DNA of 64,000 bases from a virus: IMG/VR virus record IMGVR_UViG_3300032265_003779, positions 1 through 64,000 of that record; one strand, given 5' to 3'. The notes under the pieces are model-generated. The model was not told the origin of the DNA. It saw only the letters and a program-made list of their open reading frames with translations, and ran no database searches. This document shows, piece after piece, positions 9,201-18,928 of the stretch (the first letter of the stretch is position 1; each line of letters opens with the position of its first letter). The position numbers and the translations under genes were made by a program.

Positions 9201-9770
9201 ATGAGTGTATTTCAAGTTAAATTAAATAATGGAACCCAAGGACTTTTAGACAATGATCCTAATGGAACCAGCATTCAAAGAAGCATTTATGTTCCTGGTC
9301 CCAACCGATCTAGTCATGAGCTAAAAGACGGGGAAGTATTCTCGGGGTCTAACTATTGGAAACGATTTGTTTATCCAAATACTTCAGCAGAACTATCATT
9401 TTTAATATTGTTGGAGGATGATGGGTCTACTTGGTATGATAAAGCAGATTTTAATAATATCCCAAAAGTTTATAAACTAACAATTGAAGAAGGAACCTCT
9501 TTTGCAGACAATGTGATGGATATACAAAAAGACACAGAAAGCTTTGCAGATTTTGTTCAAATCTCCAACCAATCAGATGATCCTTTAAAAATAAGATTAA
9601 ATGGATTGGATTCAGCAATATTTGATTTAGGAGGAAAAGAAGTTCAGAGTTTTGATTCAGGAGAATTAAATATTCAAAAAATAGAAGCCCTTATACCAGA
9701 AGGATACTCCGGTCCTGTTGCTCTACAAGTAATATTAGCCGTAGTAGTTATAGAATCTACTAAAAAGTAG
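9201..9770 (+). CDS. Probable virion protein, 189 aa
   Basis: A beta-rich, acidic protein. Its N-terminal 60 residues (FQVKLNNG, GTSIQRSIYV, LKDGEVFSG) align by eye with the start of the 105-residue protein at 42286 (YIVKLNPD, GKSIQRTLHG, LADGESFND), so the two share a small domain. The C-terminal half (SNQSDDPLKIRLNGLD) is also beta-prone. No ribosome binding site; the late-promoter-like element touches the ATG, consistent with a late structural role. Exact function unknown. Confidence 0.65.
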   Translation: MSVFQVKLNNGTQGLLDNDPNGTSIQRSIYVPGPNRSSHELKDGEVFSGSNYWKRFVYPNTSAELSFLILLEDDGSTWYDKADFNNIPKVYKLTIEEGTSFADNVMDIQKDTESFADFVQISNQSDDPLKIRLNGLDSAIFDLGGKEVQSFDSGELNIQKIEALIPEGYSGPVALQVILAVVVIESTKK

Positions 9771-9778
9771 GTAAAATT

Positions 9779-10021
9779 ATGCCACAATTAATAAAACCTG
9801 GAAGTGTTAGATTAGTATCAAAAGATGGAGAGGTAAGTGTGGCAATAACTATTGATTTAAATATAAATTTAACTAATTTATTAGAAGGAGTTTCTTTACC
9901 CTCTTCGTCAATACCTGACAAAACAAATAAAAAAGAAAATTCAATAACAGAAGTTACAAGCGATAAAGTTGAATGGGCTATACCTGATTTTGGATCAGAA
10001 AAAATAAATTTTGGAAAATAA
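9779..10021 (+). CDS. Small protein upstream of the actin-like gene, 80 aa
   Basis: An 80-residue protein with a beta-prone N-terminus (GSVRLVSKDGEVSVAITID), a Ser/Asn/Lys-rich linker and a distinct C-terminal segment VEWAIPDFGSEKINFGK that looks like a binding peptide. It starts 8 bases after the upstream gene and ends 15 bases before the actin-like ATPase gene. By analogy with ParM operons it could be a filament partner, but there it would normally be a DNA-binding protein, and I see no DNA-binding motif. Confidence 0.6.
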   Translation: MPQLIKPGSVRLVSKDGEVSVAITIDLNINLTNLLEGVSLPSSSIPDKTNKKENSITEVTSDKVEWAIPDFGSEKINFGK

Positions 10022-10036
10022 AAGGAGAAATAAAAA

Positions 10037-11038
10037 ATGATTGGAATGGATTGCGGAACTTATACATTAGTTTGTTGCAAAAGAGACGAAAATAAAAATT
10101 TTTCTTATAAAAAAGAAATTAATGCATTTCTTGAAATGCCTCTTGAAAACAAGTTTGTTTTTAACATGATGAAAAATGCTGGAGTTCCTCTTATTGAACG
10201 TGAAAAACAAGCATACGCTTTGGGTGAAGCCGCTGTTAATATGGCATATACAATGAGTGGACTAGAACTAAAAAGACCCATGACTTCTGGTTGTGTTAAC
10301 CCTAAAGAAAAAGATGCATTTCAAATATTAAGTATAATGCTTCACAGTTTAATTGGAGAGGTAGAAAAAGATAAAGAAATTTTATATTACTGCGTTCCAT
10401 CTAATGCTATTAACGAAGAAACAGATGCTGAGTATCATGGTAAAATACTTGATGCTATATTCAGAGCCTATAAAAGCGAAAAAGGGCACACAGTTGATCC
10501 AAGACCTATTAACGAAGCTTTAGCACTAGTTTATGCAGAACTTGGAAACAAGGCTTATACGGGCATTGGGTTAAGTTTCGGGGGGGGCATGGTAAATGTT
10601 TGCTTTGCAATGTTTGGCAATCCTCTATTCTCTTTTTCAATAGTTAATAGCGGAGATTGGATTGATAAAATGGCTGCAAAGGCTACTGGTGAAAGTACAA
10701 CATATATAAATAAAGAAAAGCATAAAATAGATCTGGCAAAAGCACCAACATCGCTTGTAGAAAGAGCGATACAAACACAATATAGAATAATGATAGAGCA
10801 TGCTGTAACTGGTATTAAGAAAGGACTTTTAAACACATCTAAAAGTGTTAAAACAGATCAAGAAATTGATTTTGTTGTAGCAGGAGGAACGTCTAGTCCT
10901 AATGGTTTTAAAGAACTGTTTGCAGAGTGTTTAAAACAAGCTGATCTTTCTGTTAAAATTGGGGATATTATTCAACCTAAAGATCCACTCTACAGTGTGG
11001 CTAAGGGCTGTTTATTGGCTGCAGAAAATGCTAATTAG
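10037..11038 (+). CDS. Actin-like ATPase (ParM/StbA/MreB superfamily)
   Basis: A 333-residue protein with the actin-fold nucleotide-binding motifs in order: phosphate-1 loop GMDCGTYTLV at the N-terminus, a connecting region PINEALALVYAELG, phosphate-2 loop GIGLSFGGGMVNV near residue 175, and an adenosine-binding segment VVAGGTSSPNGF near residue 280. Length fits ParM-type proteins. AAAGGAGAAAT precedes the ATG. Such proteins form ATP-dependent filaments that move plasmid or phage DNA, or are Hsp70-like. In a phage it may segregate or position replicating DNA. Family assignment is strong, role inferred. Confidence 0.8.
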   Translation: MIGMDCGTYTLVCCKRDENKNFSYKKEINAFLEMPLENKFVFNMMKNAGVPLIEREKQAYALGEAAVNMAYTMSGLELKRPMTSGCVNPKEKDAFQILSIMLHSLIGEVEKDKEILYYCVPSNAINEETDAEYHGKILDAIFRAYKSEKGHTVDPRPINEALALVYAELGNKAYTGIGLSFGGGMVNVCFAMFGNPLFSFSIVNSGDWIDKMAAKATGESTTYINKEKHKIDLAKAPTSLVERAIQTQYRIMIEHAVTGIKKGLLNTSKSVKTDQEIDFVVAGGTSSPNGFKELFAECLKQADLSVKIGDIIQPKDPLYSVAKGCLLAAENAN

Positions 11039-11075: not shown

Positions 11076-11528
11076 ATGCTAAAAACAATAGAAGACCTTG
11101 GAACAGCCGCATATATTCTTATGCATAACTACAAGTTGGCAGGAAGAAAAGGCAAAGAAATTATATTTGAAGTAGAAGATGATAAAGAAGAAAAGTTTGA
11201 TATTTTAGGCTTAGATTATCTAAGCAGTGAGTATCATAGATTTGATTCTTGTATAATGAGTCTTAAAAAAATAAGAGAATATAATTTCGAAGTCACTGGA
11301 AAGGCTAGGTTTGCAACAGACTTAGGAGTTGCTGCTTACATTTTGATGCACAAATATAAGGTTCTGGGTAAAAGGGGAAAGTATATCTACTTCGAGGTAG
11401 AGAGCCCAGAAGTTAATGAAAAATTTGATGAACTTGCATTTGAGTATTTGACCAGCGATTTTCATAAATTTGACTCTTGCTTAATGAGTCTTAAAAAATT
11501 AAGCGAATATATTTCTGACAGAAAATAA
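11076..11528 (+). CDS. Duplicated DUF5659-like protein
   Basis: A 150-residue protein made of two direct repeats of about 68 residues. Each repeat starts with DLG[TV]AAYILMH[NK]YK, continues through GR/KRGK.I.FEVE and ends with a FDSC[IL]MSLKK segment. The layout (a DLxxAAYLxxxGYK start, a central F-E/F strand, a terminal Leu/Lys helix) fits the small phage and mobile-element domain DUF5659, whose function is unknown. Internal duplication is plain in the sequence. A leaderless-type start element precedes it. Confidence 0.65.
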   Translation: MLKTIEDLGTAAYILMHNYKLAGRKGKEIIFEVEDDKEEKFDILGLDYLSSEYHRFDSCIMSLKKIREYNFEVTGKARFATDLGVAAYILMHKYKVLGKRGKYIYFEVESPEVNEKFDELAFEYLTSDFHKFDSCLMSLKKLSEYISDRK

Positions 11529-13090: not shown

Positions 13091-14146
13091 TCATATTCCT
13101 TTTAATTTAAAATAATCACCACCGGTGCCCAAGGGAGCCTGAAAATCAAGCTTCTTTTTACTTGCTATCATATAGCTTTTCATCACATTAGGACCTTCTT
13201 TTACAAACATTTCATTCCAATCTTTATATGCTTTGTAAGGACTGACGAACATAAGCCTATCTTTTAAGTTTTTTGACTCTAAGTTTCTATTAATTATATC
13301 TGTCATTATCATCATGCCTCCGGAGCCCGCCTTATCGTTATCCAGGCATATTACTATTTTATAATCTTTAATTAGATTCATTTGTTTATCATCTAAGTTT
13401 TTACCTCCACAAGCGATGCCATTTAATCCAGAATAAAAAATACTTAAAGCATCAAATTCTCCTTCACAAAGGTATATTTCTTCTCCAGAGTCTGCCCAAT
13501 TGCCACCAGCAAAATACAAAACATCAGACTTGCCAACACCAACTTCTTTTGGTGGACCACGATATCTTAATTTAGAATTTCCAACATGACGACCATTCCA
13601 ATAAAACAAATTTCCATCTCTATCATAGTATGGAATTATTATTCTGGCTTTGTATGGATCTGTTTTGCAAATATAAAGTCCGTCTACTGGTATCTTTCTT
13701 TTTTTAAGATATTCTGTAGCTAAATTTCTCCAAAAATTATTATTAGGAAGAGAGCTTATTAGGCTGCTGCCTTCGGGTAGGAGAAGTTGTTTCTTCTCAG
13801 GAACAATATTTGGCTGATCTTCTTTATCTTGATTTTCAAAAAACTCAAATAATTGTTGTTCTAAATCTTCTATTGAGGATCTTCCATAAAAAATTGATAC
13901 AGCTTTATCCCTGCTGCATTTATCAACAATTTGTATTAATTTTATTAAAGATCCTTTTTTATCTGTTTTAAAGCAGTGGAAAACACCATTATTTCTACCT
14001 TTTTTTCCACCAGAAGGACTACACCACAAATGGTGCTTAGTATCATCTGCGAATATTGAATTTATAACAATTTCATTTCCTTTAACAATTATATCTCCAT
14101 CAAACCTATCCTCTGCCCATTTTTGAAAATTTTCAAATATTCCCAT
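13091..14146 (-). CDS. gp61: DNA primase, T4 gp61-like, Toprim domain
   Basis: A 351-residue protein making RNA primers for lagging-strand synthesis. The N-terminal region has a zinc-finger-like core (LWCSPSGGKKG, then FHCFKTDKKGSLIKLI), like the CHC2-type start of DnaG-family primases. The Toprim domain follows near residue 215, with the acidic motif YLCEGEFDALS and later VICLDNDKAGSGG, which bind catalytic metals. I start at 14146 (MGIFENFQKWAEDRF); a longer frame up to 14212 has no supporting site. It diverges from the Cas4-like nuclease gene. Its gp41-type helicase partner is not in the window. Confidence 0.85.
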   Translation of the reverse strand: MGIFENFQKWAEDRFDGDIIVKGNEIVINSIFADDTKHHLWCSPSGGKKGRNNGVFHCFKTDKKGSLIKLIQIVDKCSRDKAVSIFYGRSSIEDLEQQLFEFFENQDKEDQPNIVPEKKQLLLPEGSSLISSLPNNNFWRNLATEYLKKRKIPVDGLYICKTDPYKARIIIPYYDRDGNLFYWNGRHVGNSKLRYRGPPKEVGVGKSDVLYFAGGNWADSGEEIYLCEGEFDALSIFYSGLNGIACGGKNLDDKQMNLIKDYKIVICLDNDKAGSGGMMIMTDIINRNLESKNLKDRLMFVSPYKAYKDWNEMFVKEGPNVMKSYMIASKKKLDFQAPLGTGGDYFKLKGI

Positions 14147-14197
14147 GATTTCAATTATATCAAGATCTTTTCTTTTTGCAATTACTACTTTAACTGC

Positions 14198-14953
14198 ATG
14201 AAAATAGAACACCTATCCGTGAGCAGAAAACAACTTTGGGATCAATGTCAACAGGCTTACAAGTATAAATATCATCTTGGAGTAGAGGTTAAAGAACCAG
14301 AACCAGAATACTTTTTGTATGGAAAACTTGTTCACAAAGTAGCAGAAGACTATGTCAAAGACAAAGGTAAAACAAAAATAGACGAAATTTTAAAACCATA
14401 TTTACAAGGAAGTTTATTGCTAGAAAATAAAAAAGTAGAATTATCTTCTGAGTATAAGAACAAGCTCGCAGAACATTTAACAAATATTAAAAAATTAACT
14501 GATCGTGTTGGATTTGAAGGCGAAACAGAATACTTCTTTAAATATGATCTTGATCCTCCAAAAGGAAAACATGTAACAGGAGTAATTGATAGATTTTTTA
14601 TAAAAGAAGATACTTGCTTTATAATAGACTATAAAACAACAAAGAAAGGTAGATGGAGAAAAACTCCAGAAACCATAAGACAAGATATTCAAATGCTTTG
14701 TTACGCAAGAGTAATTCAGAGAAACTTTAATATAAAGGCGGAAAATATTAGAGCGGCTTTATACTATTTGTCGGGAGGTGATATTATCGCAACAAAATTT
14801 AATCAAAACATGTTGGATAAAACAGAGCAAATTCTTCTTGAAGCATATAATTCAATAGAATCAAAAGATCCAGATGAAGTTTTTGGCAAAGTAGGAGAAC
14901 ACTGTGTGCGATGCCAATATAAAAAATTGTGTCCTTTTTATAATATAATTTAA
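14198..14953 (+). CDS. Cas4/RecB-like PD-(D/E)XK nuclease
   Basis: A 251-residue nuclease of the PD-(D/E)XK superfamily. Motifs in order: LSVSRKQLWDQCQQAYKYKY at the N-terminus with the first Cys, YGKLVHKVAED with the conserved His, VTGVIDRFF, the catalytic IIDYKTTKKGRW, QMLCYARVI and the C-terminal cluster HCVRCQYKKLCPF. The four cysteines match the iron-sulfur cluster arrangement of Cas4/AddB-type nucleases. I start at 14198 because the upstream frame has no support and overlaps the primase start. Likely an exonuclease for phage recombination or replication rather than CRISPR, as no cas genes or array are present. Confidence 0.8.
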   Translation: MKIEHLSVSRKQLWDQCQQAYKYKYHLGVEVKEPEPEYFLYGKLVHKVAEDYVKDKGKTKIDEILKPYLQGSLLLENKKVELSSEYKNKLAEHLTNIKKLTDRVGFEGETEYFFKYDLDPPKGKHVTGVIDRFFIKEDTCFIIDYKTTKKGRWRKTPETIRQDIQMLCYARVIQRNFNIKAENIRAALYYLSGGDIIATKFNQNMLDKTEQILLEAYNSIESKDPDEVFGKVGEHCVRCQYKKLCPFYNII

Positions 14954-17112: not shown

Positions 17113-18882
17113 TTACCACCCAAACTCTTTAAGAATTTTATTACTTTTTCTATATCTATTAATTAAAATTTCCTGATCTTCAAGACTAATAGAGGAACTT
17201 GAGCTTATTTCTTCTTCAATAAAATCTTCATATCTAGAGTCTAGTAGTTCTTTTCTAATTTCTTCACAAACATCATCTTTTAAGCTTTGTGTTAATCCTT
17301 GTGATGATTGTGCTCCCACAGGAAGATCTTGTGCTATTTGATTTCTAACATAAAGAGCTATACATAATGCTGATATTGCATCATCATGCTTTCTTTTTTG
17401 TGCTTCTACTTTTTTTGTAGTTGCATTATACTCAAAAGTCTGAAGTTCAGCTGCTAGTCTAGCACTGTTTAATCTTATATTTCTATTTAGAATCCTGTTC
17501 TGCATAGCCTCCAGTATTACTGGTCTGTTTATTCTGTTTACCTTAAATCCAATTGTTTGAGATCCATTTTTCTTTGTTTCAAAATATATGTTTTCATAAT
17601 ATAAATTATTTTGTAAAGAACTAAGAACGGCAGCTCCAGCAGCCAAATTTTCAACAACTACCAACGCTGTGTTGTAGTAGGTTCCTAATTGATGGATTAA
17701 TTTTGAATAAATATGTGGTGGAACAAGATTGCTGTAAAATTCTGCTACCTGCTCTAGGGTCTCCATATCTAAAATTTGAAAGCAACTATTATCTGAATTT
17801 TCTCCCATACCATCAGCACAATCAACGCCAATAATATACTCTCTACCATCTTGTGGTTCTTTCCAAATCCATAAAGCCCCCTTGTTGTCTTCTGACTCTA
17901 ATTGAAAAGCAATTCCTGATTTATTAACCCATTGTGTAAAAAGCTTTTTTACTGGGGGCATTTTGTTTGTATAATCTGTTATTTCTCTTATTATATTAGA
18001 TGGAATGTACGTATCTCCTGATCCTAAAAATTCTCTTAAAACTTCTTGTAGAAACCCTTTTTCTCCAAGTTGTTTTTTTTGTTCTTCCACCCATTTTTCA
18101 TCATTATATTCAGGATGCTCCCAATAATCCAAATCTATTACATTAAACATGTTTCGTTTATCTTTTGCATCACTGTATTGTTGTTCGTACCAATTGCCCA
18201 TACCATTTACCGTTGATATTAAAACACAACTACCACCAGTGCTTAAAACTGGCCACATTGCTTTCCAATGTTTGTCCATATCAGGAATAAATGCAGCCTC
18301 ATCTATTATTAGAAATGTTACTGATTTACCACGAGCGGCTTCTGGTGAGTAAAACTTTAGTGCTCCTCCAGTATCTGGAAACATTTTTAAATGGTCATTC
18401 CATTTTCCTTCACCCTTTTTAGGAGCAAGCCAAGTTGGTAAATTTTCTACTGCTCGATCTATTATCATTCCTATGTCTGTTGCTTCTCGGTCTGTTTTAG
18501 ATAACAACATTATTTGCTGATCTAGCTTAAAGCTACATCTCCATAATCCCCAAAGTAGTGTGACTGTTGTCAATCCTCCTTGTCTAAATTTAGAAATTAT
18601 ATTAAACCTATTGTTTTCGTAATCCTTAATTACTTTTCTTTGGTAGTTAAAAAGAACGAAAGGAATTAAACCTTTAATAGGATGCAATATTTTAATATAC
18701 TTGTGGCAAAAATATTCAAAACTATTTACACATTTTATTGTCTCTATCTTCTGTCTCTCTAGGTCATATAGATTTACTTCTTCTAAAGTTTCGTTTGGAT
18801 CTATAGCTAATTCATAGTTATTTAAAGTAAAATACTTTGGATTGTAGTGTTTTTCATAATATTCTTTGAAATCCATATTCAT
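17113..18882 (-). CDS. gp17: Terminase large subunit (gp17)
   Basis: A 589-residue packaging motor. The N-terminal ATPase has an adenine-binding FNYQRKVI, a Walker A-type SKFRQGGLTT and a Walker B-type FLIIDEAAFI, followed by a coupling motif LISTVNG. The C-terminal RNase H-like nuclease shows YIIGVDCADGMG, VVENLAAG and KRKHDDAISAL with the conserved acidic residues. It cuts and pumps DNA into the prohead at the portal. I start at ATG 18882 (MNMDFKEYY); the frame extends to a TTG at 18903 but that lies inside the terminator hairpin. The ATG at 18876 is an alternative. Confidence 0.93.
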   Translation of the reverse strand: MNMDFKEYYEKHYNPKYFTLNNYELAIDPNETLEEVNLYDLERQKIETIKCVNSFEYFCHKYIKILHPIKGLIPFVLFNYQRKVIKDYENNRFNIISKFRQGGLTTVTLLWGLWRCSFKLDQQIMLLSKTDREATDIGMIIDRAVENLPTWLAPKKGEGKWNDHLKMFPDTGGALKFYSPEAARGKSVTFLIIDEAAFIPDMDKHWKAMWPVLSTGGSCVLISTVNGMGNWYEQQYSDAKDKRNMFNVIDLDYWEHPEYNDEKWVEEQKKQLGEKGFLQEVLREFLGSGDTYIPSNIIREITDYTNKMPPVKKLFTQWVNKSGIAFQLESEDNKGALWIWKEPQDGREYIIGVDCADGMGENSDNSCFQILDMETLEQVAEFYSNLVPPHIYSKLIHQLGTYYNTALVVVENLAAGAAVLSSLQNNLYYENIYFETKKNGSQTIGFKVNRINRPVILEAMQNRILNRNIRLNSARLAAELQTFEYNATTKKVEAQKRKHDDAISALCIALYVRNQIAQDLPVGAQSSQGLTQSLKDDVCEEIRKELLDSRYEDFIEEEISSSSSISLEDQEILINRYRKSNKILKEFGW

Positions 18883-18891
18883 ATCTATGAA

Positions 18892-18928
18892 AAAAGCCCC
18901 CAAAATATTTATATTTTGGGGGCTTTAA
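18892..18928 (-). terminator. Strong hairpin terminator before terminase
   Basis: A near-perfect inverted repeat, AAAGCCCCCAAAATAT paired with its complement, ends in a T run when read on the minus strand. It should terminate transcription from the acidic-protein gene, so terminase must have its own promoter or depend on read-through. It is nearly symmetric and could also work on the plus strand. Confidence 0.85.

Follow-up and report, generated by a model that had tools for sequence, protein, structure and literature searches.

Introduction

Phage cytoskeletons are known mainly from the PhuZ tubulin and from a few actins of the ParM and Alp types. The PhuZ spindle of phiKZ-like phages belongs to a different superfamily from the actin described here, and the two possibly do the same job, that of creating intracellular order in huge phages. 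An actin that is carried by a phage and shares its operon with an adaptor gene has been reported for the AlpAC system of the Corynebacterium prophage CGP3 (PMC4446434). Volactin, a further actin type, is represented by VolA (HVO_2015) of Haloferax volcanii, which acts in cell shape and whose filaments were likened by the authors to dynamically unstable ParM (PMC10869688). In its main text, a survey of huge phages mentions tubulin and makes no mention of actin (PMC7162821).

Here we describe a volactin-type actin gene in the genome of a tailed phage. The window that was analysed is a stretch of 64,000 nucleotides from a virus record of 87,590 bases (IMGVR_UViG_3300032265_003779), and genes for a terminase, a major head protein and a baseplate hub are found in the same contig. 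Phage actins with adaptors are already known from AlpAC; what is new, within the literature searched, is the occurrence of the volactin type in phages. No phage volactin was found by title or abstract in the open-licence literature, and an earlier description elsewhere is possible. If a volactin system does operate in these phages, it would add another kind of cytoskeleton to those of huge phages, and the phage proteins would open a new branch in the evolution of volactin, a protein that the literature found had described only from archaea. Two questions become testable: whether these phages build actin filaments, and whether a tail of the aromatic-Ile-Pro kind on a neighbouring protein is an actin-binding element.

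Results

The phage gene encodes an actin of the volactin type

The actin gene and the nucleotide-site motifs of its product are as follows.

10037 to 11038, plus strand: gene for a volactin-family actin-like ATPase of 333 aa, assigned by Pfam PF25216 and the AlphaFold fold
10049 to 10066, plus strand: phosphate-1 loop DCGTYT, residues 5-10; D5, G7 and T8 are kept in 35 of 36 aligned members, the remaining row being a gap
10514 to 10516, plus strand: Glu160, putative catalytic residue, aligned with the glutamate of the MreB EEP motif and invariant (36/36)
10568 to 10597, plus strand: phosphate-2 loop GLSFGGGMVN, residues 178-187, in which Ser180 replaces the usual Asp; the Ser is invariant (36/36)
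10877 to 10894, plus strand: adenosine motif VAGGTS, residues 281-286, with invariant GG

A ribosome-binding-like AGGAG sits 5' of the reading frame. Compared with its nearest relatives, the closest of which shares 90% protein identity, the gene has a dN of about 0.065 and a dS above 1.2 (dN/dS near 0.05); this disparity shows strong purifying selection and, together with the family match and the model described below, confirms that the predicted frame is a real gene.

The product matches the Pfam family Volactin (PF25216) over residues 2-329 with an E-value of 2.2e-65 and 221.7 bits, against a curated cut-off of 35. The Pfam family MreB_Mbl gave a weak match under its own cut-off, a family for the protein was not found in PHROGs, and a single-sequence search of solved structures returned no relevant match. 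When the solved structures were searched with a profile of 36 relatives, the best chains had E-values of 2e-10 to 2e-6 (MamK at 2e-10, BeeR at 2e-6, MreB ranging from 6e-8 to 1e-5), and no ParM chain was matched. The AlphaFold model (mean pLDDT 91.8, pTM 0.88) has 681 fold matches in the PDB at E <= 0.001, led by Mbl, MamK, MreB and BeeR with TM-scores of about 0.6-0.7, while ParM first appears at rank 33 with TM-scores of 0.55-0.58. Because MamK, MreB and BeeR come best in both rankings and ParM stands far down, we assign the protein, from its sequence and predicted fold, to the actins of the volactin/MreB type. Its identity to the MreB, MamK and BeeR structures is about 16-18%, and it differs from them in lacking the phosphate-2 Asp.

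The original prediction of a phage-encoded actin-like ATPase is therefore upheld by the Volactin match, the confident model with its MreB/MamK-like fold and the tailed-phage genes in the contig. It had also read the order and spacing of the motifs as ParM-like and had proposed a structure comparison with that family, among others; the comparison returned an actin fold, and a ParM identity is ruled out by its place in the structure ranking and its absence from the profile matches. Closer similarity to Hsp70 or sugar kinases, which had been raised as a possible objection, did not appear either by Pfam or among the 50 best structure matches listed, so these identities are rejected as well and the actin reading stands.

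The three motifs do occur in the predicted order, with DCGTYT at residue 5, SFGGGM at 180 and AGGTSS at 282, and the residues conserved across the aligned volactins are D5, G7, T8, E160, G182, G184 and GG283-284. Ser180 aligns with the Asp of MreB and MamK, so that the canonical phosphate-2 aspartate is absent throughout the aligned family. Archaeal volactins, which share 30-36% identity with the phage actin, carry the same Ser, as does VolA, which belongs to the same Pfam family over its full length. The Ser is a trait of the whole volactin family and does not exclude membership of the actin fold; judging from the alignment, the exchange of Asp for Ser may alter ATP hydrolysis.

Two phage volactins are interrupted by inteins at different points of the phosphate-2 loop (L087, 4995-7133, and L232, 5968-8181). 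The Pfam matches are to Intein_splicing, with LAGLIDADG and HNH endonuclease domains, and the insertion of the inteins at different points of the same loop suggests that it is a conserved functional site.

Volactins are widespread in viral contigs

One scan of viral contigs gave 120 relatives of the actin gene, of which 80 were kept at 65-90% identity, and another scan, for which a more distant alignment was used, gave 189 relatives, of which 80 were again kept; the 120 and the 189 may overlap, as overlap was counted among kept rows only. By sequence similarity, volactins are thus present in hundreds of viral contigs. They include a 595-kb phage (LR756511, 64.5% identity to the window actin) and a 485-kb phage (LR745208, 33%). 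A viral contig of 297 kb (IMGVR_UViG_3300025141_000016) carries two full-length volactin genes, L191 and L199. Cellular relatives at about 30-36% identity occur in haloarchaea, Methanosarcinales/ANME, Thermoplasmatota and a few bacterial genomes.

In a tree of 70 volactins, phage clade A (which holds the window gene), phage clade B, the archaeal proteins and a small bacterial clade each fall on one side of a well-supported branch. A long, fully supported branch sets clade A off from the archaeal volactins in this tree, which was midpoint-rooted without an MreB outgroup, so that the group nearest to clade A cannot be read from it. One contig filed under a Neisseriaceae MAG (RXKI01000042.1, the L087 locus) carries the gene block of phage clade A and is probably a misbinned phage contig. 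In a bacterial MAG (L093), the volactin gene lies within a gas-vesicle cluster with GvpL/GvpF, GvpK, GvpA-type and ArsA-like genes. At a second locus (L099), Hsp70 and ArsA-like genes lie near the volactin gene, and gas-vesicle genes had no Pfam confirmation there or at L106.

A small gene with a conserved tail accompanies the actin gene

The neighbouring genes considered here are the following.

9201 to 9770, plus strand: conserved upstream gene of 189 aa, in 74 of 80 viral loci
9779 to 10021, plus strand: gene for a small putative adaptor of 80 aa, with a homologue adjoining the actin gene at 78 of 80 viral loci as well as in the 595-kb phage
9974 to 10018, plus strand: WAIPDFGSEKINFGK, a short linear motif at the C-terminus of the small protein, in which P, F, K and FGK are invariant in a 27-row alignment
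11076 to 11528, plus strand: conserved downstream gene of 150 aa with tandem DUF5659-like domain copies, in 78 of 80 viral loci

At most 16 nt separate the small gene from the actin gene in 65 of 81 loci, a count that includes overlaps produced by choosing the earliest start codon; in the 595-kb phage the homologue likewise lies immediately 5' of the actin gene. The small protein starts with a conserved stretch, continues through a variable linker and ends in the conserved motif W-x-IPDF...K-x-FGK. A broader pattern, aromatic-(x)-[IV]-P, is found in 57 of 59 distinct clade A small proteins and in 110 of the 2094 remaining ORFs at these loci; because the pattern was drawn up with the sequences in view and the loci are not independent, the numbers serve as description only. 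No recognised DNA-binding domain was found in the small protein by Pfam or PHROGs, and beside archaeal and bacterial volactins the tail motif gave only scattered, chance-like matches.

In the window, as at some other loci, the small gene and the actin gene share a reading frame, and their products were modelled as one fused chain with the intervening TAA read as Gly, from an alignment of 17 rows. The actin part of this AlphaFold model is confident, and the linker and tail of the small protein have a pLDDT of about 33-45, the tail itself being at about 40-45. Docking of the tail on the actin is not predicted and so has no structural support, although a six-residue junction and a partly paired alignment make this weak evidence. 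The suggestion that the small upstream protein might be a partner of the actin is therefore favoured by synteny, by conservation of the tail and by the parallel in clade B described below, and is not favoured by the fused model.

In clade B, the product of the gene directly 5' of the actin gene is usually longer and differs in its N-terminal region; a variable linker comes next, then a DEP-x-[FY]IP motif, and the protein ends in a basic stretch that looks helical (ALKxxRKKK). It looks unrelated to the clade A small protein and occupies the same gene position. Within the last 90 residues, aromatic-(x)-[IV]-P occurs in 42 of 57 of these proteins and in 158 of the 1703 remaining ORFs at those loci, counts that are again descriptive. 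At three clade B loci (L215, L216 and L218, representing two distinct sequences) the actin carries an N-terminal helix-turn-helix fusion, the HTH_23 match being at E 9e-6 in L218 and weaker in L215; these fusions are a hint, read from domain matches, of a link to DNA.

A convincing family match was not found for the product of the 189-aa upstream gene, and the DUF5659 similarity of the downstream family is weak, with 2 of 25 members matching (best E 4e-5). Between 8600 and 11600 no iteron centromere was found, and the only clustered direct repeats there belong to the tandem domain encoded by the downstream gene. A primase-like (Toprim) gene, at 13091-14953 in the window, and its neighbours are conserved close to the actin gene at about half of the clade A loci; in some contigs the primase-like and volactin genes lie far apart. 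Contigs with the primase are mostly volactin contigs too, and the four without volactin (9 to 64 kb) may be fragments.

Discussion

Of the explanations considered, the best, and one to which we give somewhat better than even chances, is an actin filament with an adaptor. Within the infected cell, the phage volactin would probably form dynamic filaments by polymerising with ATP, and the small upstream protein would act as the adaptor, its W-x-IPDF...FGK tail docking on the actin or the filament. A flexible linker would precede the tail, and the N-terminal part would hold the cargo, most likely the DNA of the phage or else intermediates of late assembly, for instance capsids and tails. Such a system could order replication or maturation in space, in phages that seemingly lack a PhuZ spindle.

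The pairing of an actin with an adaptor-like gene resembles AlpAC in gene arrangement; the small partner differs in having no recognised DNA-binding domain, and nearby iterons were not found. ParMRC likewise combines an actin fold with a small neighbouring gene whose product has a conserved tail at its C-terminus, and it differs in that the window partner lies upstream instead of downstream, that an iteron centromere is lacking and that ParM ranks far below MreB. Unlike the phage clades, archaeal volactin genes had no tail-motif partner found beside them.

A broader proposal is that in two large groups of huge phages a volactin-type actin and an upstream disordered adaptor ending in aromatic-Ile-Pro form a cytoskeleton that replaces the PhuZ spindle. 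We put this forward tentatively and regard it as having well under an even chance. The Pfam tubulin family was absent from 14 volactin phage records, and PhuZ and the nuclear shell protein chimallin were absent from 11, the records in both sets being mostly fragments; phiKZ, the positive control for the latter search, was detected. An actin system as the equivalent of the tubulin spindle would fit this absence but is not shown by it.

A filament used for virion maturation only, which would move or gather capsids and tails and would be tied by the small protein to a structural protein and not to DNA, is the nearest competitor, and we think it rather unlikely. The terminase gene (17113-18903) lies about 6 kb from the actin gene, the baseplate hub and major head protein are encoded in the same contig, and a large upstream gene has weak matches to PKD domains, under the cut-off; PhuZ filaments, moreover, also affect capsid trafficking (PMC9067925). 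However, the conserved downstream genes include the primase-like gene on the other strand, so the gene order is not specific to virion genes, the clade B neighbours tested had no virion match in PHROGs, and the helix-turn-helix fusions of that clade point to DNA.

A phage actin might instead act on the host, joining or disturbing MreB or another shape system and thereby remodelling the cell or blocking its division. MreB and MamK are its nearest solved structures by both fold and profile, and archaeal volactin affects cell shape (PMC10869688). Yet in both clades a conserved phage gene accompanies that of the actin, which suggests that the phage system is self-contained, and at only about 17% identity to MreB structures co-polymerisation would be unlikely; we consider a host-directed role improbable. 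Equally doubtful is an actin-fold ATPase that forms no filament and serves as a switch or assembly chaperone, for although the phosphate-2 Asp is Ser across the whole aligned family and the bacterial relative in the gas-vesicle cluster suggests help in building a structure, the volactin of Haloferax volcanii, with the same Ser, forms dynamic filaments in vivo (PMC10869688).
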